Below are positions 159 through 48,890 of a stretch of 49,957 bases of DNA, one piece after another (the stretch's first letter is position 1; every line of letters begins with the position of its first letter). Made by a program: the position numbers and the translations under genes. The DNA is from Cytophagales bacterium (GTDB taxonomy: Bacteria; Bacteroidota; Bacteroidia; Cytophagales; Cyclobacteriaceae), in the NCBI GenBank assembly GCA_022360055.1, contig JAKSDO010000105.1:1-49957 (forward strand), in the 5' to 3' direction. Below the pieces are notes generated by a model that did not search any database, had not been told where the DNA came from, and saw only the letters and a program-made list of their open reading frames with translations.

Positions 159-192
159 AACCAGTTGCATTTCTTTTGCAACTGGTTTTTTT
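159..192 (+). terminator. Hairpin with T-tract in the fecR-susC gap (left locus)
   Basis: Perfect 10-bp arms AACCAGTTGC and GCAACTGGTT with a 9-nt loop are followed by seven T on the plus strand. As an intrinsic terminator it would act on plus-strand RNA, antisense to the susC leader. In the mRNA sense the hairpin follows the leader-peptide stop codon and an A-run and has no U-tract. Confidence 0.7.
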
Positions 193-217
193 AGCTTGTA
201 TCGTTGTATTTTTCCAT
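191..217 (-). CDS. Putative 8-aa leader peptide MEKYNDTS upstream of susC
   Basis: The ATG is 5 nt after the fecR stop codon. The ORF reads Met-Glu-Lys-Tyr-Asn-Asp-Thr-Ser-stop, and its last codons are GAT ACA AGC TAA. The other two fecR-susC gaps have a counterpart ending in the same Asp-Thr-Ser-stop with different synonymous codons, which argues for selection on the peptide. The A-run and hairpin follow directly. No function is known to me. A translated cis-acting leader controlling susC is the inference. Confidence 0.5.
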   Translation of the reverse strand: MEKYNDTS

Positions 218-35936: not shown

Positions 35937-38900
35937 CTAAAAGTTAACATTTAAACCAATAGTCCAGGTACGCGGAAGCGGTAGTCCCGGAGGGCTGTTC
36001 AACCCGAGTTCCCGCCCGTCGGTGACTTCCGCAATTTGAGAGCCGCCTATCAGCGCAGGGCCGCCGGCAGAAACTCGTCTCGCCTCTGGATTGCCTCCGA
36101 CAAATTTTGTGAACGTGTGGAGGTTTTCGACCGAAGTAAAAATCCGGCCGCCGGTCATGTGTAATTTCGAAAGAAATGTCGTTGGCAGATTATAGCTTAA
36201 GGTCACATTTCGTATCCTCAAAAAATCCGTCTTCTGGACTCCTGCGCTGGACACCGGTGCAATACCGTCGTTAAAACTACCGGCGGCAGGTGTCTTTCCG
36301 TCTCCCGGATTATTCTCATCTATATATCTGCCGTCGTACCAGTACTCTTTGGATAGATTTACATTTCTAAACGGCGCTGCGACCTGAAGCAGCCAGAAGT
36401 CATAAACATATGCGCCGGATTGTCCATTAAACAGTACGGATAGATCGAAGTTCTTATAACTTAAGCTGGTGTTGATGCCATAGATATAGTCGATATTGGT
36501 ATCGCCGATAAGCTGACCATCAGCTCCCAGAAAGTTGCTTATGCTTCCATCTCCGTCCACATCTTCATATCTGTAAGCGCCCGCTTTACCTAATGGCACC
36601 CCATCAAAGTCTTCACCTTCCCGGGCGATACCGATCACTTTCGGACCTCGAATTTGCTGCAATTCTCCTCCTACTACCCTTCTCAGGGCGCCAAAGAAGT
36701 TTTGAATCTCTTGTTCTCCTCCCAGATCCAGGATCTCCTGATCATTAAAAGTGAGGTTCCCGCCTATGGACCAACGCCAATCCTGCGAATCTATGATTTG
36801 GGCATCAATTGTCAATTCGACCCCCTTGTTCCTCATACTGCCAATGTTTGTCAGAAATGATGAATATCCCGAGGATGGAACAACGTTTTTGGTGAGCAGC
36901 AGTGTGGTTGTCTCGTTATCATAATAGTCGAAAATGAGATTGAATCTATTGTTGATGAACCCTACATCCAAACCGATATCAAACTGAGTTGATGTTTCCC
37001 AGGTCAAATTGTCGTTTCCGGGCAGCCCCAGTGTGGTGCCAAATATCGCATTGGAACCAAATGCGTGACGAACGGAATTCATGGTTGCTCTGGAATCAAA
37101 ATCCCTGATCGAATTACTGCCTGTCGACCCGTAAGAAACCCTCAATTTGCCGTTTGACAAGAAATCCAATCCTTCCATAAATACTTCCTCGCTAAACCTC
37201 CAGCCCAAAGCAAATGAGCCAAATGTCTGATATCTTTTATTGCTTCCAAACCTTGAGCTTCCATCCGTTCTTACCGTAGCCGTTAAAAGGTATTTCCCCT
37301 TTAATCCATAATTCAACCTGGCAAGATAGGATACCAACGAATTACTTGAGCTACTGTTTCCCCCCTGGAGCGTTTCCACATTGCCAATGTTCACATTTCT
37401 TATTCCAGGCACCTGGAGCTCATTCACTCTGGCATTAACATTATATCCATTGTCTTTTTGCAGGGTGAATCCGCCCAATACATCGAATGAATGATCCCCG
37501 ATTTCTTTTTTGTAGTTGATCGTATTTTCATTCAACCAACCGAACTGCTGGTTCTGCGAAGTGCTGAACTGAGATACTGCAGGTAACTGAAATACATTAT
37601 CCTGCCCAACAGTTGGCAAATAATAGGTTTCGCTTTTATTGGTCCCATAGGTGGTTGAAAATGACGAATATAAAGTCAGGCCTTCAACTATCTCAATCCT
37701 GCCGTAGATCCCTCCTAAAAATCTGAATCTGTCGGTCTGATGATCGTAGTTCTCAAAAGTTTCAAGAGGATTGCCGACCGGAGGAAATCCTCCGAAGTCC
37801 GAGTTCATCGAAAATGTGCCGTCTGCACGTCTTACCGGAAGGATCGGCGCCATCATCAATGCCTGAGCATACAGGGAAGACCAATCGACGTTGGGCGTAG
37901 CAGGACTTCTCCGCTGAGTCGTGGTAAAATTCGGTGCAAGGTTCATTCCAATGGTAATATTATCCGAAGGCCTGTAATCGACCTTTAACCGCGTGGAGTA
38001 TTTTCTGAATTTCTCACCGATGATCACACCCTGCTGATCTAGATAATTCGCCGACAGCAGGTAGGAGACTTTTTTAGATCCGCCTGATCCTGAAATGGCA
38101 TAATTTTGATAAGGAGCGGATCTAAACACCAGATCCTGCCAGTCGGTATCCGTCGTACCGTCCCAAACGTCGGTAATCCAATCAGGTACGCTTCCTCCAT
38201 TTGCTTCCGTATGAAATTGTACATACTCTTCGGCATTCAGCACTTCCATACGAGATCCTTCCGGAACAGATGCCGAACCCGCAATAATGGAAAGATTAAG
38301 CACCGATTTTCCTTCCTGGCCGGATTTTGTAGTTATGATAATTACACCATTAGCGCCTCTTGAACCATAAATTGCCGTGGCAGAGGCATCTTTTAAAATC
38401 TCTACGGACTCGATGTCTGCAGGATTTATGGCTTGCGCATTTCGCTGGTCGGTGGGGAAACCGTCTACGACCCACAGCGGGGAAGTTCCGGCCGTAATCG
38501 AACCTAGAGCCCTGACCGAAACAGTTCCTAATTCCCCTGGCGACGCAGACCTCTGCACCACATTTACACCCGCAATCAATCCCTGCATCGCTTCCTCAAA
38601 AGAAGCAATGGGCCTGGCTTCAATTTGACCGGATTCCACGGATGCAATTGATCCGGTGACATCCTTCTTCTTTTGCACACCGTATCCGACCACAACGATT
38701 TCCTCCAGGGAAGTGAGGTCCGGGGTCATGACCATATCTATAATGGTGTTGTTCCCAACTTCGATTTCTTCCGTCACATAGCCTACCGAACTAAATACCA
38801 ACAGCGCATTTTCATTTGGCACGCCCAATTTATAATTCCCCTCGACATCGGTAACTGTTCCGATCGAGGTCCCCTGCACCAAAATATTTACTCCGGGCAA

Positions 38901-39356
38901 ACCTTCATCATATTCATCGGTAACCCGGCCCGAAATGGATATGTTTTGTTCATTGAACTTCTCTTCGATCTTTATTGATTCGTCAGTCTCCCTTTTGCCT
39001 ATGTGAATGTAGTTATTGATCCGCTTGAATTTTAATCCGGCATCCCTGGATATCTGCATTAGAATGCTGGCCAAATCCGTACCTACACAGTTCAGGGATA
39101 TTTTATAGTCGAGATCGATCTTTTCACTGTTGTAGGCAAAGGAAAAACCCGTTTCGTTTTCGATTTTGTCTAATACCTTTTTTACGGGAACTTTGGTAAC
39201 ATCGATGGTGATGTAGATATCCTGAATACTATTATCAAGAATCTGGGCATTCAAATCCTCGGCCATAATCGCGCTGTAACAGATGCAGCACAATGTAAAG
39301 CCGTAAAACATTTTCTTGGACATGCTTACTACTTGTCTGAGTAACTTTGATTTCAT
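35937..39356 (-). CDS. SusC/RagA TonB-dependent outer-membrane transporter with STN signalling domain
   Basis: An 1139-residue protein. The signal region is followed by an STN domain (about 47-120), a carboxypeptidase-regulatory-like domain (about 139-218; ISGRVTDEYDEGLPGVNILV), a TonB-box/plug segment (LEEIVVVGYGVQKKKDVTGSIASV) with DIESVEILKDASATAIYGSRGANGVIIITTK, and a long beta-barrel ending in the aromatic LNVNF. The STN domain contacts FecR in transducing-type transporters, so substrate occupancy should activate the cognate sigma factor. It precedes susD by 14 nt. The 173-nt leader to fecR contains the leader peptide and hairpins listed separately. Confidence 0.96.
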   Translation of the reverse strand: MKSKLLRQVVSMSKKMFYGFTLCCICYSAIMAEDLNAQILDNSIQDIYITIDVTKVPVKKVLDKIENETGFSFAYNSEKIDLDYKISLNCVGTDLASILMQISRDAGLKFKRINNYIHIGKRETDESIKIEEKFNEQNISISGRVTDEYDEGLPGVNILVQGTSIGTVTDVEGNYKLGVPNENALLVFSSVGYVTEEIEVGNNTIIDMVMTPDLTSLEEIVVVGYGVQKKKDVTGSIASVESGQIEARPIASFEEAMQGLIAGVNVVQRSASPGELGTVSVRALGSITAGTSPLWVVDGFPTDQRNAQAINPADIESVEILKDASATAIYGSRGANGVIIITTKSGQEGKSVLNLSIIAGSASVPEGSRMEVLNAEEYVQFHTEANGGSVPDWITDVWDGTTDTDWQDLVFRSAPYQNYAISGSGGSKKVSYLLSANYLDQQGVIIGEKFRKYSTRLKVDYRPSDNITIGMNLAPNFTTTQRRSPATPNVDWSSLYAQALMMAPILPVRRADGTFSMNSDFGGFPPVGNPLETFENYDHQTDRFRFLGGIYGRIEIVEGLTLYSSFSTTYGTNKSETYYLPTVGQDNVFQLPAVSQFSTSQNQQFGWLNENTINYKKEIGDHSFDVLGGFTLQKDNGYNVNARVNELQVPGIRNVNIGNVETLQGGNSSSSNSLVSYLARLNYGLKGKYLLTATVRTDGSSRFGSNKRYQTFGSFALGWRFSEEVFMEGLDFLSNGKLRVSYGSTGSNSIRDFDSRATMNSVRHAFGSNAIFGTTLGLPGNDNLTWETSTQFDIGLDVGFINNRFNLIFDYYDNETTTLLLTKNVVPSSGYSSFLTNIGSMRNKGVELTIDAQIIDSQDWRWSIGGNLTFNDQEILDLGGEQEIQNFFGALRRVVGGELQQIRGPKVIGIAREGEDFDGVPLGKAGAYRYEDVDGDGSISNFLGADGQLIGDTNIDYIYGINTSLSYKNFDLSVLFNGQSGAYVYDFWLLQVAAPFRNVNLSKEYWYDGRYIDENNPGDGKTPAAGSFNDGIAPVSSAGVQKTDFLRIRNVTLSYNLPTTFLSKLHMTGGRIFTSVENLHTFTKFVGGNPEARRVSAGGPALIGGSQIAEVTDGRELGLNSPPGLPLPRTWTIGLNVNF

Positions 39357-39396
39357 AATTTTGATTTTCTTAAGTGATTCGCATTACTTGAGATGA

Positions 39397-39458: not shown

Positions 39459-39496
39459 GAAAGTCAGCAATTCCGCTTGCTGACTTTCCGTTTTTT
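39459..39496 (+). terminator. Hairpin with T-tract in the fecR-susC gap (middle locus)
   Basis: Perfect 12-bp arms GAAAGTCAGCAA and TTGCTGACTTTC with a 6-nt loop, then CG and six T on the plus strand. It would end an RNA antisense to the susC leader. In the mRNA sense it follows the leader-peptide stop codon. The sequence GGGTGAAAGTC next to it is shared with the left locus. Confidence 0.72.
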
Positions 39497-39518
39497 AGCT
39501 GGTATCTTCCTGTTTCAT
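39495..39518 (-). CDS. Putative 7-aa leader peptide MKQEDTS upstream of susC
   Basis: Met-Lys-Gln-Glu-Asp-Thr-Ser-stop begins 11 nt after the fecR stop. It ends GAT ACC AGC TAA and is followed by A-rich sequence and a 12-bp hairpin. It corresponds in position and C-terminus to MEKYNDTS at 191-217 and MKNMEDTS at 46963-46989. Function is unknown; the conservation pattern suggests it is translated. Confidence 0.5.
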   Translation of the reverse strand: MKQEDTS

Positions 39519-39529
39519 ATTTATTGAGT

Positions 39530-40561
39530 TTATTTGATATATACTTTTTTCCCTCTTATTTCATAGGTGAAATCCGATGTGAAACCCATGCCTTCAAGTA
39601 CAACATCGAGCGAGGCATTTTTATATACACCGCTGAATCGACCGCTCATATCCGCCCCGGGAGCTACAATTATTTCCACGCCATACCATCTTTCCAACCT
39701 TTCTACGACCTCCCTGAATTCAGCCTCCTTAAAATTCAATTCACCATCTTTCCAGCCCAATACCTGATCGTGTGAAAATGATGTAACCTGAAATTCGGAT
39801 GATTGATGATTGTAGGTAAACATTTGATCCGGAACCAAATAATCCAACGTTCTGAATTCAAAGTCTTCCTGCTTGTCGATCATCAACTTTCCGGTTACCA
39901 ATGCCACTTTGACATCCCTTTCATACGGAAATGCTTCGACATTAAAAGATGTGCCAAGTACTTTAATGCACAAATCGCCTGTTTTTACTTCAAACGGTCT
40001 CAAACTATCTTTTACTACTTCAAAAAATGCTTCTCCTATTAACTTTACAGTGCGGTCGTCTTCAAAATCCGGGTAATATTCAATATGGCTTTCTGCGTTC
40101 AATTTTACTTTGCTCCCGTCCGGTAACGTAATGAGCGATTTCATTCCGCGAGGATTACTCTTAACAATCAATTCATGGGAAACGGCAATTTCGGTTGCAG
40201 GTCTCCAATAATTACCCGCCCGATAAATAATCCATGCGCCCGTAACCAGGATCAAAAATACCGCCGCAACTCTGTACCACTTCCTGAATGCATGCCGATA
40301 AAACCCGTCTGTTTTTTTGTTGTCTTGAAATTCCTTTGACGTATGGATCCCCAATTTATCCGAAAGCTTTTTGTAAACTTCCCCGGCACGCTTTGCTTTT
40401 AATTTGTATTCCCCGCTTATAAACGCCTCCTTGTAGCAATGATACAGGGTCTTATTAGCATTCGATTCAGAGAGCCAGTCATTCAATAAATCTTCCTCTT
40501 CTCCGGATATCTGCCCTGTAAGTTTATTGGTTATTAAAAAAAGTATCTTTTCGTCGATCAT
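39530..40561 (-). CDS. FecR-family anti-sigma factor
   Basis: A 343-residue inner-membrane anti-sigma factor; the ATG at 40561 is preferred to a TTG seven codons upstream. An acidic cytoplasmic N-terminus (LTGQISGEEEDLLNDWLSES) precedes one membrane span (about 96-114, YRVAAVFLILVTGAWIIY). The FecR domain (about 138-230) contains MKSLITLPDGSKVKLNAESHIEY and GEAFFEVVKD..FEVKTGDLCIKVLGTSFNVEAF. The DUF4974-type C-terminus has MSGRFSGVYKNASLDVVLEGM. It should couple the downstream SusC to the upstream sigma factor. It lies 173 nt before susC, and the sigma gene ends 113 nt before its start. Confidence 0.94.
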   Translation of the reverse strand: MIDEKILFLITNKLTGQISGEEEDLLNDWLSESNANKTLYHCYKEAFISGEYKLKAKRAGEVYKKLSDKLGIHTSKEFQDNKKTDGFYRHAFRKWYRVAAVFLILVTGAWIIYRAGNYWRPATEIAVSHELIVKSNPRGMKSLITLPDGSKVKLNAESHIEYYPDFEDDRTVKLIGEAFFEVVKDSLRPFEVKTGDLCIKVLGTSFNVEAFPYERDVKVALVTGKLMIDKQEDFEFRTLDYLVPDQMFTYNHQSSEFQVTSFSHDQVLGWKDGELNFKEAEFREVVERLERWYGVEIIVAPGADMSGRFSGVYKNASLDVVLEGMGFTSDFTYEIRGKKVYIK

Positions 40562-40674
40562 CTGTTCTGCTTCTCGTCTCAATAGACAACAAATTCGCCG
40601 TATACCCCAAAAAGGAAATTGATATTTTTTATTTTTAAGAGCTATCTGCGGTTTTTATAAAGGCTATAACGCAT

Positions 40675-41301
40675 TTATAAACAAAAAAGAAGGGACAAAA
40701 TCGTATCGTGCATGCTGCCGGGTTTAAGCCGTCTCGATTTGCCTTGAACATATGTTTCCAAAACGGGCTTTATACGCTTCATGGCAATGCTCAACTGATT
40801 CTCAACGGCCTTCAAACTGATATCCAATGTTTCCGCGACCTCCTTATATTTCAATCCGTCCTCTCTGACCATCCTGAAGATCAATTGGCATTTGGGAGGT
40901 AATTTACAAATTGCTTTTTCCAATTCTCTGGCCAGCTCTCTTCCCAGGTATATTTTTTCCGGCTCAACATATTCGATCATTTTCGATTCGGCATATTCAT
41001 CGATCTCGTGAAGATCGACCTTATTCCTGTTTAAATAATTAATGGCCTGGTTTTTTACCATGGTAAAGCCATAATTTCTAAAATTCTTTATTTCGGGAAG
41101 TTTCTTTCGATTTTGCCAAAGCTTGGAAAAAACATCCAATACCACCTCTTCCGCCAAATGATCTTTTTTGACGTAATAATGAGCTATTCTGTAAAATCGC
41201 GGGTAATAGTAATCATAAAAAGCCCGAAAGGAAGATTCTTTTCCATTCTTAATATCTATAAGATAACCTTTTAAATCAACGCTTTCCACGATTACCGACA
41301 A
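40675..41301 (-). CDS. ECF RNA polymerase sigma factor
   Basis: A 208-residue ECF sigma factor of the SusC/FecR-linked type. The sigma2 part is around 22-90 (SFRAFYDYYYPRFYRIAHYYVKKDHLAEEVVLDVFSKLWQNR). The sigma4 part is around 130-185 (LPPKCQLIFRMVREDGLKYKEVAETLDISLKAVENQLSIAMKRI). There is no ATG near the N-terminus: the frame opens from TTG at 41301 and has GTG at 41289, so one of these is the start. It heads the locus that carries the GH116 enzymes and should direct transcription of susC downstream. The C-terminal tail after about residue 190 is not part of the sigma fold. Confidence 0.91.
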   Translation of the reverse strand: MSVIVESVDLKGYLIDIKNGKESSFRAFYDYYYPRFYRIAHYYVKKDHLAEEVVLDVFSKLWQNRKKLPEIKNFRNYGFTMVKNQAINYLNRNKVDLHEIDEYAESKMIEYVEPEKIYLGRELARELEKAICKLPPKCQLIFRMVREDGLKYKEVAETLDISLKAVENQLSIAMKRIKPVLETYVQGKSRRLKPGSMHDTILSLLFCL

Positions 41302-43364: not shown

Positions 43365-46300
43365 TTAAAATGTAATGTTCAAACCGGTAGAAAGTAATCT
43401 GGGAAATGGCGAATAGTCAAATGCAAATGGTCTTTCCGGATCCTGTCCCTTGGGCAAATTATGAATTTCCCATAGATTGCTCCCACTTACGTAGATCCTC
43501 AGATTTTGCATCTTGATCTTATCGGTTACCTCACGCGGCAGCGTATAGCCGATCTGGATGTTTTTTAACCTCACATAAGCGTTGTTCCACAATTTGAATG
43601 GCGCCGCCGAGGTGGTCCAATTCCATCCGTCAATTCCGCCGTTTGACGTCATCTTGGGCCATGTGGCATTGGGCCGGTCTTCATGCCAGGTACGTTCATA
43701 TTCGTATTTCCAGGGCTGTTCCCACCAATTGCCGCCGAGCGGGCTATCATTGTTCTCCACTTTCCATCTGCCGACTCCCGTAAACATCGCCGAAAAATCA
43801 AATCCCTTCCAGTTTGCCCCTAAAGTGACCGAGAACTGGTGTCTGATGCGGTTGTTATCAAGCATTACGAGGTCGCCCGACTCCGGATCTCCCTCCTTGT
43901 ATAGCGTACCTCCTTCAAGCACACCGTCACCGTCCTTGTCGACCCACATTACGTCCCCTAACCTCAGGTTGCCCGGAACACCCTGAATGGTCTTGTATTC
44001 ATCCAAAACGCTTTGGTCCGTGATCAGCCCGCCGTATTCATATCCGAAATACGATCCCGTGCTGTATCCCTCCACATATTCATTGAAGCCAAAGCTTGGC
44101 AAAATGGCATCTTCGAGGCTCGTTACTTCATTCCTGTCGTCGCTGTATAGCCCTCTGACAAAGTAATTGAACTCGCCGATATTATCTTCCCATGTCAAAG
44201 ATATCTCCATCCCCTTGGTTTGGATCGTACCTCCATTTACGGTAGGAGGAGCAATCCCCAAAACCGATGGGAATTCCTGGGAAATGAGTATATCTTCCGT
44301 ATTCTTTATGAAGAAATCAACCGCTCCGGATAATCGGGAATCCAGAATTGCAAAGTCAATGCCCAAATTGTAAATATTCACCGTTTCCCAGGTCCTGTTT
44401 TCGCTTGCCAGCGGCGATGCCTCGTTGGCTGCTTGCGTTCTGGACGGGCTTACCGGATCGCCAAAGGGCAGCTCTCCCTTGAGGTTACCATCTCCCCACC
44501 TGCTGGGCACATTTATTCTTGAAAAGTGATCAAATCTCCCGACGTTGTTTTGGTTGCCAAGCTGGCCGAATGAGGCCCTGATCTTTAGGTTGCTCAGAAA
44601 GCTGCTGTTGGCCAAAAAGCTTTCGTTGCTGAGCACCCATCCGCCGGAGATCCCGTAAAAATCTCCCCATCTGAAATCTTTGGCAAACCGGGAAGATCCA
44701 TCTCTTCGGTAGCTGGCTTCGATCAGGTATTTGGAGTCGAAATTGTAACTGGCCCGGGCAAAAAATGAGCTGATGGCATACTGACTTTTGCTTTCTCCGG
44801 TAAACTGAAATTCAGGATCGCCCAGGGATAATACCCTTAACTGGTCGCTTACCAAAAAATCCCGGCCTGCACTAAAGTATCTGTTGTCAATTTCTTCGTG
44901 ACTGGCGCCAATCGTAAATTCCGTGTTGTGCTTTCCGCCGAAGGTGCGGTTGTAGGTAGCAAACATGTCAGCCACCATGTGCGTATCTCTCCAGTACTCG
45001 GACCCGGCGCCTGTTCGATCGCTGGACCTTATTGAAGGGTTTTCATCCCAGTTGTAAAACTGTATGATCTTCCGCAAGGCGGAGTCATCCCGCAAATCCA
45101 CAGCGGCGCTAAAGCGACCGACTACAGATAACCCATCCATTGGGGTCAGCGTGGCATTGAATTGCGCGCGCGTGTTGTAAAATTGTGAAATTCGATCCCC
45201 TCCGGCTTCGGCCCAGGCATGTGGGGGAGTAAAGCCGCCAAAATTGTAATATCTTCCTTCCGGGGTCGATAACGGCATGGATGTCCAGGCACTTGCAATC
45301 GCCCCGGTCACTCGATCGTAATTCTCCGGCTCTTTGATCTCCTGGCTTTCCAGGGAGATATTGGTACCTACATTCAGAAGTTCATCAATCAAATCGAAAT
45401 CGTATTTAAAACGGGCAAAGTATCTCAAATTCTTGTTTTCACCGTATTGCAACATCGATTGCTGGTCGAGTATCCCAAATGAAACAAAGTAGTTTGATTT
45501 TTTTGAATTGCCCGATACACTCAAATTATGGTTTTGCATTAACGCGGTGCCCCACATGGTCTCCATCCAGTCGTTATGCCCCAGCCACATCGTCGGTGTA
45601 TCGCCAAACGGCCCGGGCATGACCTTCCCCTCGTTAATGTCGAAATCCGGGTCAGTCACTGCTGCTGTCTGATCCACAAAAAAGTGATTAAAATTCCCAT
45701 CGTTTTCAAAGGCCTCCGATGCCATGATCATATGCTCCCTCACATCCGTGATTTCCGGCCTCAGCCCGGGCACATTCCATGAAAAGTTGCCGTCATAGCT
45801 TATCCTCGGCCTGTTCGATGTTCCCTTTTTCGTGGTGACCAGGATGACACCCCCGGCCGCCCTGGCGCCGTAAATGGCCGCCTGGGCATCTTTTAGTACG
45901 GTAATATCCTGAATATCACGCGGATTTAATTTGTTCAGGGCATTTGCGTTTGCCTCGCGCTGAGGAATGCCATCAATAATAATGAGCACTCCGGGATCGG
46001 ACCTTGATGTAATCCCTCTAATCTGAATATTATTTTCTTCACGGCCAACCCGTCCGTCGCCCCTCAGAACGAGCAAACCAGGTATCTCGCCCTGCAGTTG
46101 ATTTACCACTTCCGTCTGGGGCCGGCTTTCAAATACTTCTTCACCAACCGAAAATGTAGAGCCCGTAAGCGTCCCTTTCGTCTTCGTACCGTAGCCAATT
46201 ACTACAATTTCATTCAGGGCTTTGATGTCCGGCACCATCGCCAGATCAATCACGGATTGAGCACCTACGGATATCTCCTCGGTGATGTACCCGACGGAAC

Positions 46301-46865
46301 TGAAAACCAGCACCGAATTGTCATCGGGAACGGCTACCGAATAATTCCCTTCAATATCGGTAACAGAACCCGTAGTTGTCCCTTGTACGATCACGTTAAC
46401 TCCGGGTAATCCGGAATTATCTTCCGATGAGGTAACTTTACCCGTAATAACTCTTCCCTGGATGATGATTTCTATGGACGATCTTTCCTGATCCGACTCC
46501 AGCTTTTGTCGAACGTTGATGGTATTGTTTACCTGCCGGAATTTTAGCCTGCCCTTTTTTGAGATTTCGAGAAGCAGGTCCGAAACGGACCGGCCTTCGG
46601 ATTTAAAATCAATTCTTACCGTATTGTTTATGTCATTTATATTGTAGTTGAATGTGTATTCCGTGCTATTTTCTATGGCCTTAAAGCACTCCCGGATGCT
46701 CGCATTTTCAAAATCACCTGAAATGGCAACTTCCCGGACACTTTTTATCGCTTGTGCCTCCAGATTTGTAGCCATTACCATGCCCAGAAACAATGTCTGG
46801 AGAAATATTCCCAATAACGTTCCGTTTATTGCCATAACAGCAATTGATCTTAAATTTTTTTTCAT
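43365..46865 (-). CDS. SusC/RagA TonB-dependent outer-membrane transporter with STN signalling domain
   Basis: An 1166-residue transporter. The N-terminal hydrophobic signal is followed by an STN domain (about 42-118), a carboxypeptidase-regulatory-like domain (about 140-218; ITGKVTSSEDNSGLPGVNVIV), the junction LNEIVVIGYGTKTKGTLTGSTFSV and a plug (IQDITVLKDAQAAIYGARAAGGVILVTTKKG). The barrel ends in the aromatic TGLNITF. The STN domain and the adjacent fecR and sigma genes mark it as signal-transducing. The substrate is unknown. It is complete and clearly distinct in sequence from the SusC at 35937, so the two units probably take up different ligands. Confidence 0.96.
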   Translation of the reverse strand: MKKNLRSIAVMAINGTLLGIFLQTLFLGMVMATNLEAQAIKSVREVAISGDFENASIRECFKAIENSTEYTFNYNINDINNTVRIDFKSEGRSVSDLLLEISKKGRLKFRQVNNTINVRQKLESDQERSSIEIIIQGRVITGKVTSSEDNSGLPGVNVIVQGTTTGSVTDIEGNYSVAVPDDNSVLVFSSVGYITEEISVGAQSVIDLAMVPDIKALNEIVVIGYGTKTKGTLTGSTFSVGEEVFESRPQTEVVNQLQGEIPGLLVLRGDGRVGREENNIQIRGITSRSDPGVLIIIDGIPQREANANALNKLNPRDIQDITVLKDAQAAIYGARAAGGVILVTTKKGTSNRPRISYDGNFSWNVPGLRPEITDVREHMIMASEAFENDGNFNHFFVDQTAAVTDPDFDINEGKVMPGPFGDTPTMWLGHNDWMETMWGTALMQNHNLSVSGNSKKSNYFVSFGILDQQSMLQYGENKNLRYFARFKYDFDLIDELLNVGTNISLESQEIKEPENYDRVTGAIASAWTSMPLSTPEGRYYNFGGFTPPHAWAEAGGDRISQFYNTRAQFNATLTPMDGLSVVGRFSAAVDLRDDSALRKIIQFYNWDENPSIRSSDRTGAGSEYWRDTHMVADMFATYNRTFGGKHNTEFTIGASHEEIDNRYFSAGRDFLVSDQLRVLSLGDPEFQFTGESKSQYAISSFFARASYNFDSKYLIEASYRRDGSSRFAKDFRWGDFYGISGGWVLSNESFLANSSFLSNLKIRASFGQLGNQNNVGRFDHFSRINVPSRWGDGNLKGELPFGDPVSPSRTQAANEASPLASENRTWETVNIYNLGIDFAILDSRLSGAVDFFIKNTEDILISQEFPSVLGIAPPTVNGGTIQTKGMEISLTWEDNIGEFNYFVRGLYSDDRNEVTSLEDAILPSFGFNEYVEGYSTGSYFGYEYGGLITDQSVLDEYKTIQGVPGNLRLGDVMWVDKDGDGVLEGGTLYKEGDPESGDLVMLDNNRIRHQFSVTLGANWKGFDFSAMFTGVGRWKVENNDSPLGGNWWEQPWKYEYERTWHEDRPNATWPKMTSNGGIDGWNWTTSAAPFKLWNNAYVRLKNIQIGYTLPREVTDKIKMQNLRIYVSGSNLWEIHNLPKGQDPERPFAFDYSPFPRLLSTGLNITF

Positions 46866-46898
46866 AATTTTAAATGATTTATTTTAAACATTATTTGA

Positions 46899-46930: not shown

Positions 46931-46963
46931 AGCGATAATGAATTTTCCATTATCGCTTTTTTT
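46931..46963 (+). terminator. Hairpin with T-tract in the fecR-susC gap (right locus)
   Basis: Perfect 10-bp arms AGCGATAATG and CATTATCGCT with a 7-nt loop, running into seven T on the plus strand. It is the third example of a terminator-like hairpin pointing away from susC and abutting the leader-peptide stop codon. Confidence 0.72.
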
Positions 46964-46989
46964 CAGCTCGTGTCTTCCATATTTTTCAT
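46963..46989 (-). CDS. Putative 8-aa leader peptide MKNMEDTS upstream of susC
   Basis: Met-Lys-Asn-Met-Glu-Asp-Thr-Ser-stop, ending GAC ACG AGC TGA, followed directly by an A-run and hairpin. A shorter form could start at the internal ATG (46980). Here the ORF is 97 nt after the fecR stop rather than 5-11 nt, so its position relative to the hairpin is more constrained than its distance from fecR. Confidence 0.5.
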   Translation of the reverse strand: MKNMEDTS

Positions 46990-47086
46990 CTGCTTATATT
47001 TTTATAGTTTGCTGACACCCGGAGCACTATAATCATGCTCGTGTGTGTCTTAATAATTATCTCAGGCATGGCCTGTTTCATATTAG

Positions 47087-48103
47087 TTAAAAATTAATTT
47101 GCACTTTCTTACCCTCAAGTTCATACCTGAATTTTCCGGTGAAACTCAGGGCATATAAGACATTATCAAGCGCGTAGTTGTCAAACTTTCCGCTGTAATG
47201 CCATTCTTTGTCCGGTGTTCCTATTATGGTGAATTCGACCCCGTACCAACTGCCGAGTCTGTTCATGACCTCCTCGAACGAAGCATTTTCAAAATAGATC
47301 AACCCGTTTTTCCACCCAAAATCCGCTTCAGGATTGAACTTTGTGATTTCGGTAAATGACAAAGCAGCCGGGTCGTAGGAAATCGCTTGCCCGGGGAAAA
47401 GCATCACCTTGTCGATCGAACCATCATTTTGAACGTTCTCCAAAACTTCGACCTGCCCCCGGGCCAATGAGACTTTGTACTTTTTACGGTCCAATGCCAC
47501 GACATTAAAGGATGTGCCCAATACCCGTATGTCCATAACGTCGGTCTTTACGATGAAAGGCAACTTTTCATTTCGCTCCACTTCAAAAAACGCTTCTCCG
47601 CTTAGCCTGACCGTACGACTTTCGCCTTCAAATACGGACAAATACTCGATTCGGCTTTCCGAATTCAGAATGACCTTGCTGCCGTCGGGGAGAAAGACCG
47701 TGGACTTTTGGCCCCTGGGATTCTCCTTGACCACCTGCCTGGATAAAACCTGCTCTACCGGTTTGGAGGATGGATCGCTGATATACCAAAAAATAGTGAA
47801 TGCGACGGCGAGCAGGAAAACGATCGATGCGGCGATCCTTCCCAGGTATTGATAATCGCTCCTGTACCTCGAACGATATTGTCCGGATTCGGTCTGGATT
47901 TCACGCTTGATCCTGGACAACACACTTTGCGAATTCAATACCCGGTATTGTTCCCTGCTACCGGTCCAGATCTTTTCATACTTTCGACAAAGTTTACCGA
48001 ATTCGGGCTTTTCCATTAATTCACGGAATGTATCCTGCTCAGAATTTGTTAAACTCCCCGATAGTTTTTTGCCAATTAGCTCGATCTGTTTATCTGTGTG
48101 CAT
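47087..48103 (-). CDS. FecR-family anti-sigma factor
   Basis: A 338-residue inner-membrane anti-sigma factor. The cytoplasmic N-terminus (KQIELIGKKLSGSLTNSEQDTFRELM) is followed by a membrane span (about 90-108, AASIVFLLAVAFTIFWYI) and a FecR domain (about 128-220; QKSTVFLPDGSKVILNSESRIEY, RLSGEAFFEVERN, IRVLGTSFNVVAL). The DUF4974-type C-terminus has WHYSGKFDNYALDNVLYAL and ends KVQINF. It is paired with the sigma gene that ends 187 nt upstream of its start and with the SusC downstream. Confidence 0.94.
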   Translation of the reverse strand: MHTDKQIELIGKKLSGSLTNSEQDTFRELMEKPEFGKLCRKYEKIWTGSREQYRVLNSQSVLSRIKREIQTESGQYRSRYRSDYQYLGRIAASIVFLLAVAFTIFWYISDPSSKPVEQVLSRQVVKENPRGQKSTVFLPDGSKVILNSESRIEYLSVFEGESRTVRLSGEAFFEVERNEKLPFIVKTDVMDIRVLGTSFNVVALDRKKYKVSLARGQVEVLENVQNDGSIDKVMLFPGQAISYDPAALSFTEITKFNPEADFGWKNGLIYFENASFEEVMNRLGSWYGVEFTIIGTPDKEWHYSGKFDNYALDNVLYALSFTGKFRYELEGKKVQINF

Positions 48104-48290: not shown

Positions 48291-48890
48291 TCAAAACAAA
48301 ATCGACATTAAGAATCTGTACTTTTTATCGTCAAGATCATTAAAATAGGAGGATAGTTCTTCCTTAATTTTTTTTAATGCTTTTGTCATCTGATTTTTTA
48401 CGGTACTTTTCGACAGTTCCAGAATTTCGGCAATTTCCTCGTATTTAAATCCCTCATCCCGGGACAGTCTGAAGATCAACTGGCATTTGGGAGGGAGTTT
48501 TTCAACTGCCGCGTTCACCTTTTCAATCAACTCCCGGTCCAACAGCTCGCTTTCAGGATGTATTTTATGAATCAATGAAAAGTCATCAAATTCAATTACC
48601 TGCAATTTTTCAATGTTTCTTTGCTTGAGGTATGAAAGGGACTGGTTTCTGACCGACGTGAATAAATAATAGTCGATGTTGTCGATGTCCGGCAACCTGG
48701 ACCTGCTCTTCCATACTTTCAAAAAAATGTCTGAAACCGCCTCTTCTGCAAGTAATTCCGAATTCAAAATAAATAATGCAAAACGAAATAACCGGGGATA
48801 ATAGTGGTTGAAAAACGCCTCGAAGGATCTTTCGTTGTCGGATACGGCAAATTCTCTGATTAACTTTTTTATATTATCGGCGCTTTGCAT
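48291..48890 (-). CDS. ECF RNA polymerase sigma factor
   Basis: A 199-residue ECF sigma factor. The sigma2 part (about 18-88) contains SFEAFFNHYYPRLFRFALFILNSELLAEEAVSDIFLKVWKSR. The sigma4 part (about 128-180) contains LPPKCQLIFRLSRDEGFKYEEIAEILELSKSTVKNQMTKALKKI. It is close in sequence to the sigma factor at 40675 (both carry LPPKCQLIFR and xEGxKYxEIAExL) and less like the one at 1345, which suggests that the two right-hand units arose by duplication. It heads the second SusC/SusD unit. Confidence 0.94.
   Translation of the reverse strand: MQSADNIKKLIREFAVSDNERSFEAFFNHYYPRLFRFALFILNSELLAEEAVSDIFLKVWKSRSRLPDIDNIDYYLFTSVRNQSLSYLKQRNIEKLQVIEFDDFSLIHKIHPESELLDRELIEKVNAAVEKLPPKCQLIFRLSRDEGFKYEEIAEILELSKSTVKNQMTKALKKIKEELSSYFNDLDDKKYRFLMSILF

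Follow-up and report, generated by a model that had tools for sequence, protein, structure and literature searches.

A family of mini-ORFs with a conserved C-terminal tripeptide between fecR and susC in Bacteroidota, and its possible connection with a predicted antisense RNA

Glycan uptake in Bacteroidota is under the control of SusC/FecR systems. Termination-stage arrest peptides include TnaC and the MsrD leader. In Tap/CopA of plasmid R1 and RepY/Inc RNA of ColIb-P9, a leader ORF is combined with an antisense RNA directed against a nearby hairpin, and in systems of the RepY/Inc type a pseudoknot activates the target. Attenuators of the thrL type combine several regulatory codons in a row with an intrinsic terminator on the sense strand. 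For the susC homologues of Bacteroides, the accessible parts of two papers describe divergently encoded, DonS-type cis-antisense RNAs of 78-128 nt, whose mode of action they call unknown (PMC7366714, PMC11697453). The accessible text of the first of these also mentions, in general terms, that long 5' UTRs of B. thetaiotaomicron contain short ORFs (PMC7366714), and that of PMC4833913 places a peak of the leader-to-gene distance in Bacteroidetes at 11-14 bp and links it to reinitiation.

Here we describe a family of very short ORFs, referred to as mini-ORFs, located between fecR and susC. The first-pass annotation of the DNA knew of no described leader peptide of this type, and we likewise found no report of such a fecR-susC mini-ORF in the open-access literature on SusC/FecR/TonB-dependent leader peptides and small ORFs, as far as its accessible text extends. 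Peptides of 6-8 residues fall below the reach of gene annotation.

Three mini-ORFs and their frequency at fecR loci

The window, i.e. the whole stretch of 49,957 nt that was analysed, is an entire contig of the source genome (7.55 Mb, 300 contigs). Pfam assignments identify loci 2 and 3 as sigma-fecR-susC units and locus 1 as a sigma-fecR pair with a susC-like start at the contig end, all on the minus strand. Locus 1 comprises an ECF-type sigma factor gene (1345-1986, recognized by sigma region 4 models only and with an uncertain start codon), fecR 1 (223-1269, with FecR and FecR_C) and a susC-like ORF (1-49, ATG at 49-47). Owing to the window being the entire contig, only the first ~16 codons of this susC 1 lie inside it, too short for a family search, and its assignment is based on position and start context. 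Locus 2 contains ECF sigma factor 2 (40675-41301), fecR 2 (39530-40582) and susC 2 (35937-39356), the last with Plug and CarbopepD_reg_2 matches and an STN match below its cut-off. Locus 3 contains ECF sigma factor 3 (48291-48890), fecR 3 (47087-48103) and susC 3 (43365-46865, Plug and CarbopepD_reg_2). The best-scoring named relatives of FecR come mostly from Cyclobacteriaceae and other Cytophagales, among matches that may omit records of the source genome itself.

At all three loci a mini-ORF on the minus strand precedes susC in sequence. Mini-ORF 1 (191-217) encodes MEKYNDTS and starts 5 nt past the stop codon of fecR 1, mini-ORF 2 (39495-39518) encodes MKQEDTS and starts 11 nt past fecR 2, and mini-ORF 3 (46963-46989) encodes MKNMEDTS, or MEDTS from an inner ATG, and starts 97 nt past fecR 3. 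Their final codons are GAT ACA AGC TAA, GAT ACC AGC TAA and GAC ACG AGC TGA, respectively. These coordinates, distances and codons agree with the first-pass annotation, which had also spoken of three fecR-susC gaps: the three ORFs are all real, whereas susC 1 is there only as its first codons. The distance from the mini-ORF stop to the susC start is 141, 138 and 97 nt at loci 1, 2 and 3. On both strands of the window, D-T-S-stop words are confined to these three mini-ORFs, and the wider ending [DN][ST]S closes 3/522 ATG ORFs of 4-14 codons (0/248 on the plus strand, 3/274 on the minus strand).

Further loci were sampled using fecR (FecR_C, PF16344) as the anchor, so that they were not picked by presence of the motif. 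Of 108 FecR_C matches in the source genome, 70 were taken as fecR loci. The remaining 38 were left out; they consist of 27 in frames of 848 aa or more, about six lower-scoring FecR-sized matches and a few partial ones, which places at least 27/108 matches in SusC-sized frames. With at least 70 FecR genes, the source genome has a very large set of sigma-FecR-SusC units. The first set comprised 242 fecR loci from 54 genomes (the source genome, its family and the phylum), and the tested stretch covered 90 nt past the fecR stop, with an in-frame ATG at least three codons before the stop codon.

In this first set, [DN][ST]S-stop ends 57/234 short ATG ORFs compared to 2/1020 stops without an ATG (Fisher p 7e-42, loci treated as independent). 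On the antisense strand, the motif is seen in 0/103 ATG ORFs and at 1/1003 stops without an ATG, and 200 rounds of first-order Markov resampling yielded 0.10 motif ORFs on average and never more than 2, against the 57 observed. The motif occurs in 24/70 sampled fecR loci of the source genome (25 counting window locus 3) and in 33/172 first-set loci outside it. Since the motif had been defined after inspection of the 70 source-genome loci, the test was repeated on 97 loci gathered afterwards, of which the order contributed 49 and a second family 48 (all counted as sampled, a few of them looking alike). This later set gave 12/57 ATG ORFs against 0/360 stops without an ATG, with six loci in each part (Fisher p 1.4e-11, loci again treated as independent). 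The enrichment of DTS-stop-type ORFs that the first-pass annotation had suggested looking for in a large collection of gaps is therefore present in both sets. Three examples alone are few, and a chance similarity of three short ORFs could have produced them; with 3/522 in the window, enrichment among the 242 loci and again among the 97, the probability of such a coincidence is negligible and we consider it ruled out.

After removal of nine duplicates, the motif is found in 73/313 loci, distributed as 54/186 in the source family, 5/12 in a second family of the class and 14/72 named loci. It is absent from two further sampled families (0/18 and 0/11) and from 14 other loci (0/14). Named carriers belong to Dyadobacter, Larkinella, Flexithrix, Roseivirga, Fulvivirga, Agaribacillus, Indibacter and Lunatimonas, in addition to several MAGs. 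Being present in only 73/313 loci, and in 12/97 of the later set, the motif is dispensable for a fecR-susC unit.

Conservation of the peptide end

The 73 motif loci carry DTS (27), NTS (19), NSS (18) or DSS (9) before the stop codon, which is TAA in 49, TGA in 13 and TAG in 11 of them. The last Ser is encoded by AGY in 46 loci and by TCN in 27. All four Thr codons, both types of Ser codon, GAY as well as AAY, and all three stops are thus found in the motif. The use of both AGY and TCN for the last Ser points to selection on the peptide, as the two differ at two positions and such a mix is unexpected from a nucleotide signal. A clear case is given by Dyadobacter fermentans and Dyadobacter sp. 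LHD-138, with GAC ACC TCC TGA and GAT ACA AGC TAA, in which all four codons have changed while the residues are identical.

In 13 pairs of similar gaps in which each gap carries the motif, 15 synonymous and 8 non-synonymous differences fall in the last three codons, compared to 1 and 25 in the preceding codons; these pairs share loci, four or five rest on alignments shorter than 50 nt, and all are conditioned on the motif in both members. The eight non-synonymous differences, read from the listing, are seven D/N and one T/S exchange. Without this conditioning, 12 homologous gap pairs have the motif in at least one member, of which 7 have it in both and 5 lack it in one. The excess of synonymous over non-synonymous changes that the first-pass annotation had named as a check is thus seen where the motif lies. 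Its case for selection on the peptide, made from three examples, gains strong support from the codon mix, the dependence on an ATG, the 0/103 on the antisense strand and the repeat in the 97 loci. Judging from these patterns, it is almost certain in our estimate that selection acts on the mini-ORF peptide. Like described leader peptides, the mini-ORFs are short ORFs conserved at the amino-acid level near a putative arrest site.

A nucleotide motif merely resembling codons, be it a promoter or a protein or RNA site, could be suspected from the conserved start context GCCTATG, present in 55/410 loci. It would have to tolerate the interchange of AGY and TCN, a free third position in the middle codon and a free choice between D and N, and also to require an in-frame ATG. 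As endings without an ATG number only 2/1020 and 0/360, this explanation is nearly refuted, and we regard it as extremely improbable.

Conservation is limited to the C-terminus, the N-terminal part differing in length and sequence. The mini-ORFs encode 6-8 residues in 59/73 loci and range from 4 to 14 codons, where 14 codons is the limit of the search and longer ORFs fall outside it. One of F, I, L, Y and M occupies position -4 in 40/73 loci, and the shortest motif peptides are MNTS and MNDTS. PDZ-type domains read C-termini, and a conserved end behind a variable N-terminal part would also be expected if the released peptide were the product and its free C-terminal [DN][ST]S were recognized by a protein. 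Such a role is harder to reconcile with peptides as short as these two, and it leaves the placement by fecR and hairpin unexplained; we consider it distinctly unlikely.

Several other features of the sampled gaps were recorded. The GCCTATG context near the fecR stop (loci L019, L021, L149 and L288, for example) occurs 0 times when this stretch is read on the other strand, and it is often the start of an ORF of just one to four codons (M-stop, MK-stop, MR-stop, MPMK-stop), Flagellimonas included. In a looser locus set, positions -13 and -12 relative to the ATG are often A. Some other peptide ends are also found repeatedly, encoded by varied codons: [DE]T-stop in loci L024, L027, L032, L133 and L139 (4/5 as P[DE]T), [DN][TS]G-stop in L006, L035, L190, L256 and L259 (5/377 with an ATG versus 0/1569 without, a post hoc count), and [SN]YP-stop in two Flavobacteriaceae (L270, L283). 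The ends [DE]T, [KR]T and Pro are weakly enriched, also post hoc.

Placement after fecR, hairpin 1 and a predicted antisense RNA

The offset of the mini-ORF start from the fecR stop peaks at +11 nt (15/73 loci), and the mini-ORF overlaps the fecR stop as ATGA in 5/73 loci; the 97 nt of window locus 3 represent the extreme of the range. The first-pass annotation had the ORF placed by the hairpin, with its distance from fecR free. This does not agree with the +11 peak and the ATGA overlaps, by which the ORF is at least as visibly tied to fecR as to susC. The +11 peak falls within the 11-14 bp peak given in the accessible text of PMC4833913, and the placement is thus as for reinitiation. Loci without the motif likewise often have an ATG at +11 or -4 (15 and 21, n=240), showing that the placement is not peculiar to it. 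Moreover, 118/167 motif-free gaps of at least 45 nt contain a short ATG ORF, compared to 74 expected by resampling (range 62-87).

The same placement with and without the motif, together with this surplus of short ATG ORFs in motif-free gaps, would suit a coupling or end-of-message device, in which ribosomes reinitiate and then stop before hairpin 1, the tripeptide serving clean, fast termination or recycling without any regulation of susC. However, a generic terminating ORF has no need of [DN][ST]S, and other ends are far less enriched, so that we hold this possibility to be unlikely.

Hairpin 1 follows the mini-ORF stop on the minus strand at 159-187 in locus 1 (11 bp, 7-nt loop, z -5.95), at 39459-39488 in locus 2 (12 bp, 6-nt loop, z -5.30) and at 46931-46957 in locus 3 (12 bp, 3-nt loop, z -6.50). 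For each of the three, 0/200 shuffles were as stable. The succession of stop, A-run and hairpin is as first annotated, with stems beginning 3, 6 and 5 nt past the stop. The spacing, described there as fixed, is close to constant in the window but only roughly so in the larger set, where single minimum-energy folds place the hairpin at a median of 6 nt from the stop (quartiles 4 and 14.5) and within 15 nt in 50/65 cases. In these folds, a stem of at least 7 bp lies past the stop in 65/72 motif gaps, which include one duplicate pair, and none is found in 7/72. Relative to shuffles, the 60 nt past the stop have a median z of -2.55, with z < -2 in 41/70 and z > 0 in 9/70. Rfam was searched with the window at gathering scores and with 20 loci at E 0.1; both searches gave 0 matches, and membership in a known RNA family was rejected on these grounds.

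Within 8 nt after the hairpin TTTT is found in 0/65 cases, while AAAA is found within 8 nt before it in 38/65. With no U-run after it and an A-run before it, hairpin 1 has the shape of a terminator of the opposite strand. On the plus strand it reads as a stem with a T-run behind it, and the scan lists it as terminator-like at loci 1 and 2; the T-run of locus 3 was seen by reading, this hairpin being unlisted by the terminator scan. The hairpin consequently has another likely owner, an antisense RNA, and the earlier view of it as a leader-side control element is not supported in that form. The lack of a sense terminator also bears on an amino-acid attenuator sensing the supply of Ser, Thr or Asp, to which a short ORF closing with Ser and Thr codons ahead of a hairpin might point. 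With only two or three such codons and no run of regulatory codons, an attenuator is highly improbable and was rejected.

As to hairpins elsewhere in the gaps, loops of the type CNNN(N)AA (CGCCAA, CGGCAA, CTGCAA) occur in 41/457 stems of at least 7 bp and in 39/256 loci, a raw count without a null. On an antisense RNA they read TTGGCG and similar, which we take to resemble the U-turn loops of antisense systems. Kissing between hairpin loops within one RNA was dropped by eye, as CGCCAA-type loops recur in the same orientation. An extra hairpin, GACACACACGAGCATGATTATAGTGCTCCGGGTGTC, is located at 47014-47049 on the minus strand between fecR 3 and mini-ORF 3, and near copies of it are present in L027 and L057 of the source genome.

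Hallmarks of DonS-type RNAs are a sigma-ABfr-type promoter, an intrinsic terminator and repression of susC. TAnnTTTG is the -7 box consensus of the Bacteroidota housekeeping sigma. On the plus strand, the -7 box-like TAATTTTA, with its last letter off this consensus, overlaps the susC 1 start codon at 49-56 as a putative antisense promoter. At the susC 2 start codon, the putative antisense promoter TAATTTTG (39356-39363, plus strand) is a full TAnnTTTG, found in the window at locus 2 only, and at the susC 3 start codon TAATTTTA is again present (46865-46872, plus strand), differing in the last letter. In the source genome, [CT]AAANNTATG, the complement of which is TAnnTTT(G/A), occurs at 46/65 susC starts versus 0/30 fecR starts, the latter being the sole control. 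Outside the source genome it is found at 107/226 susC starts; susC starts were assigned mechanically, and some are wrong where gaps are short. A CAA is positioned as a -33 box in 14/46 of the box-carrying starts. The box may in part be a translation-start context.

Assuming a start ~7 nt past the -7 box, box-to-T-run arithmetic predicts antisense RNAs of ~84, 125 and 128 nt at the three loci. By these predicted ends, they would be antisense to the 5' region of susC, as DonS is. The -7 box at the susC start, the opposite-strand terminator shape and the length of 84-128 nt suggest that the mini-ORF stop is probably where a DonS-type antisense RNA ends. Loci with the motif have the antisense box only somewhat more often (45/72) than loci without it (107/213); no clear difference being seen, a link of the motif to the box was set aside, and peptide and antisense RNA may be independent of each other. 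No sense susC promoter emerged from a search for k-mers and dyads, and as a result the mini-ORF may be off the main susC mRNA.

Proposed mechanism and comparison with known systems

We propose, with a probability of roughly 0.4, that mini-ORFs of the family M-x(n)-[DN]-[TS]-S-stop are translated by reinitiation after fecR and hold the ribosome at their stop codon, which would limit antisense pairing and tune susC. The three window ORFs would then be members of a translated family between fecR and susC, on which ribosomes done with fecR probably reinitiate. Only the last three residues are clearly kept. With the stop codon in the A site, these are the ones at the peptidyl-transferase centre, and the tripeptide would therefore slow termination and make the ribosome dwell at the stop. 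That peptides as short as MNTS carry the motif also suggests that the ribosome is acted on at the stop codon. A dwelling ribosome would cover the few nucleotides past the stop as well as the base of hairpin 1. With a coverage of ~12 nt downstream of the codon, as stated in the accessible text of PMC4833913, and a median spacing of 6 nt, it would reach into hairpin 1. On the other strand, this hairpin is the probable terminator of the predicted DonS-type antisense RNA, whose start would lie close to the start codon of susC. The ribosome at the stop may thereby limit both formation of the hairpin and antisense pairing on the fecR-susC read-through RNA, and the basal SusC level would be set by ribosome occupancy of the mini-ORF. 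Ribosome position may thus control the hairpin, as was proposed in the first place.

A bolder form of this model is doubtful in our estimate. Here, [DN]-[ST]-S at the stop would be a cofactor-free, three-residue termination-arrest signal, active even in a peptide of four residues and used in parallel at dozens of paralogous uptake loci per genome; it would park the ribosome exactly at the end point of the susC antisense RNA, and antisense control of the transporter would in this way be gated by anti-sigma factor translation. The evidence for selection at the amino-acid level is very strong and repeated inside a single genome (24/70 loci, or 25 with window locus 3). This suggests that a conserved peptide end, read at the stop codon, has a role in the control of uptake genes. 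If the tripeptide matters only at the stop codon, it would provide a compact handle on the control of glycan uptake and on DonS action.

Compared to the DonS family of Bacteroides, the antisense RNAs of the window loci have similar lengths (~84, 125 and 128 nt versus 78-128 nt), those of the window being predictions. In their accessible parts, the DonS descriptions contain no conserved mini-ORF at the antisense end (PMC7366714, PMC11697453), whereas one is present at the window loci. A thrL-type attenuator differs in its codon run and sense terminator, in place of which these loci have 2-3 codons and 0/65 hairpins followed by TTTT. With TnaC and the MsrD leader, the mini-ORFs share a short ORF, conserved residues by the stop and a structure right after it. 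They differ in a length of only 4-14 residues, a three-residue motif, a variable N-terminus and no known ligand, and arrest is here a proposal. The layout of Tap/CopA and RepY/Inc, a leader ORF and an antisense RNA against an adjacent hairpin, is the one proposed for the window loci. In those systems leader translation is coupled to the target start, whereas here 97-141 nt separate the mini-ORF stop from the susC start; unlike the Tap and RepY leaders, the mini-ORF has a conserved peptide end, and loop sequences were compared by eye only. Finally, the reinitiation leader ORFs in the accessible text of PMC4833913 are, like the mini-ORF, short ORFs at reinitiation distance. Those leaders precede their gene, whereas the mini-ORF follows fecR as the downstream member of the pair and has a conserved peptide end.
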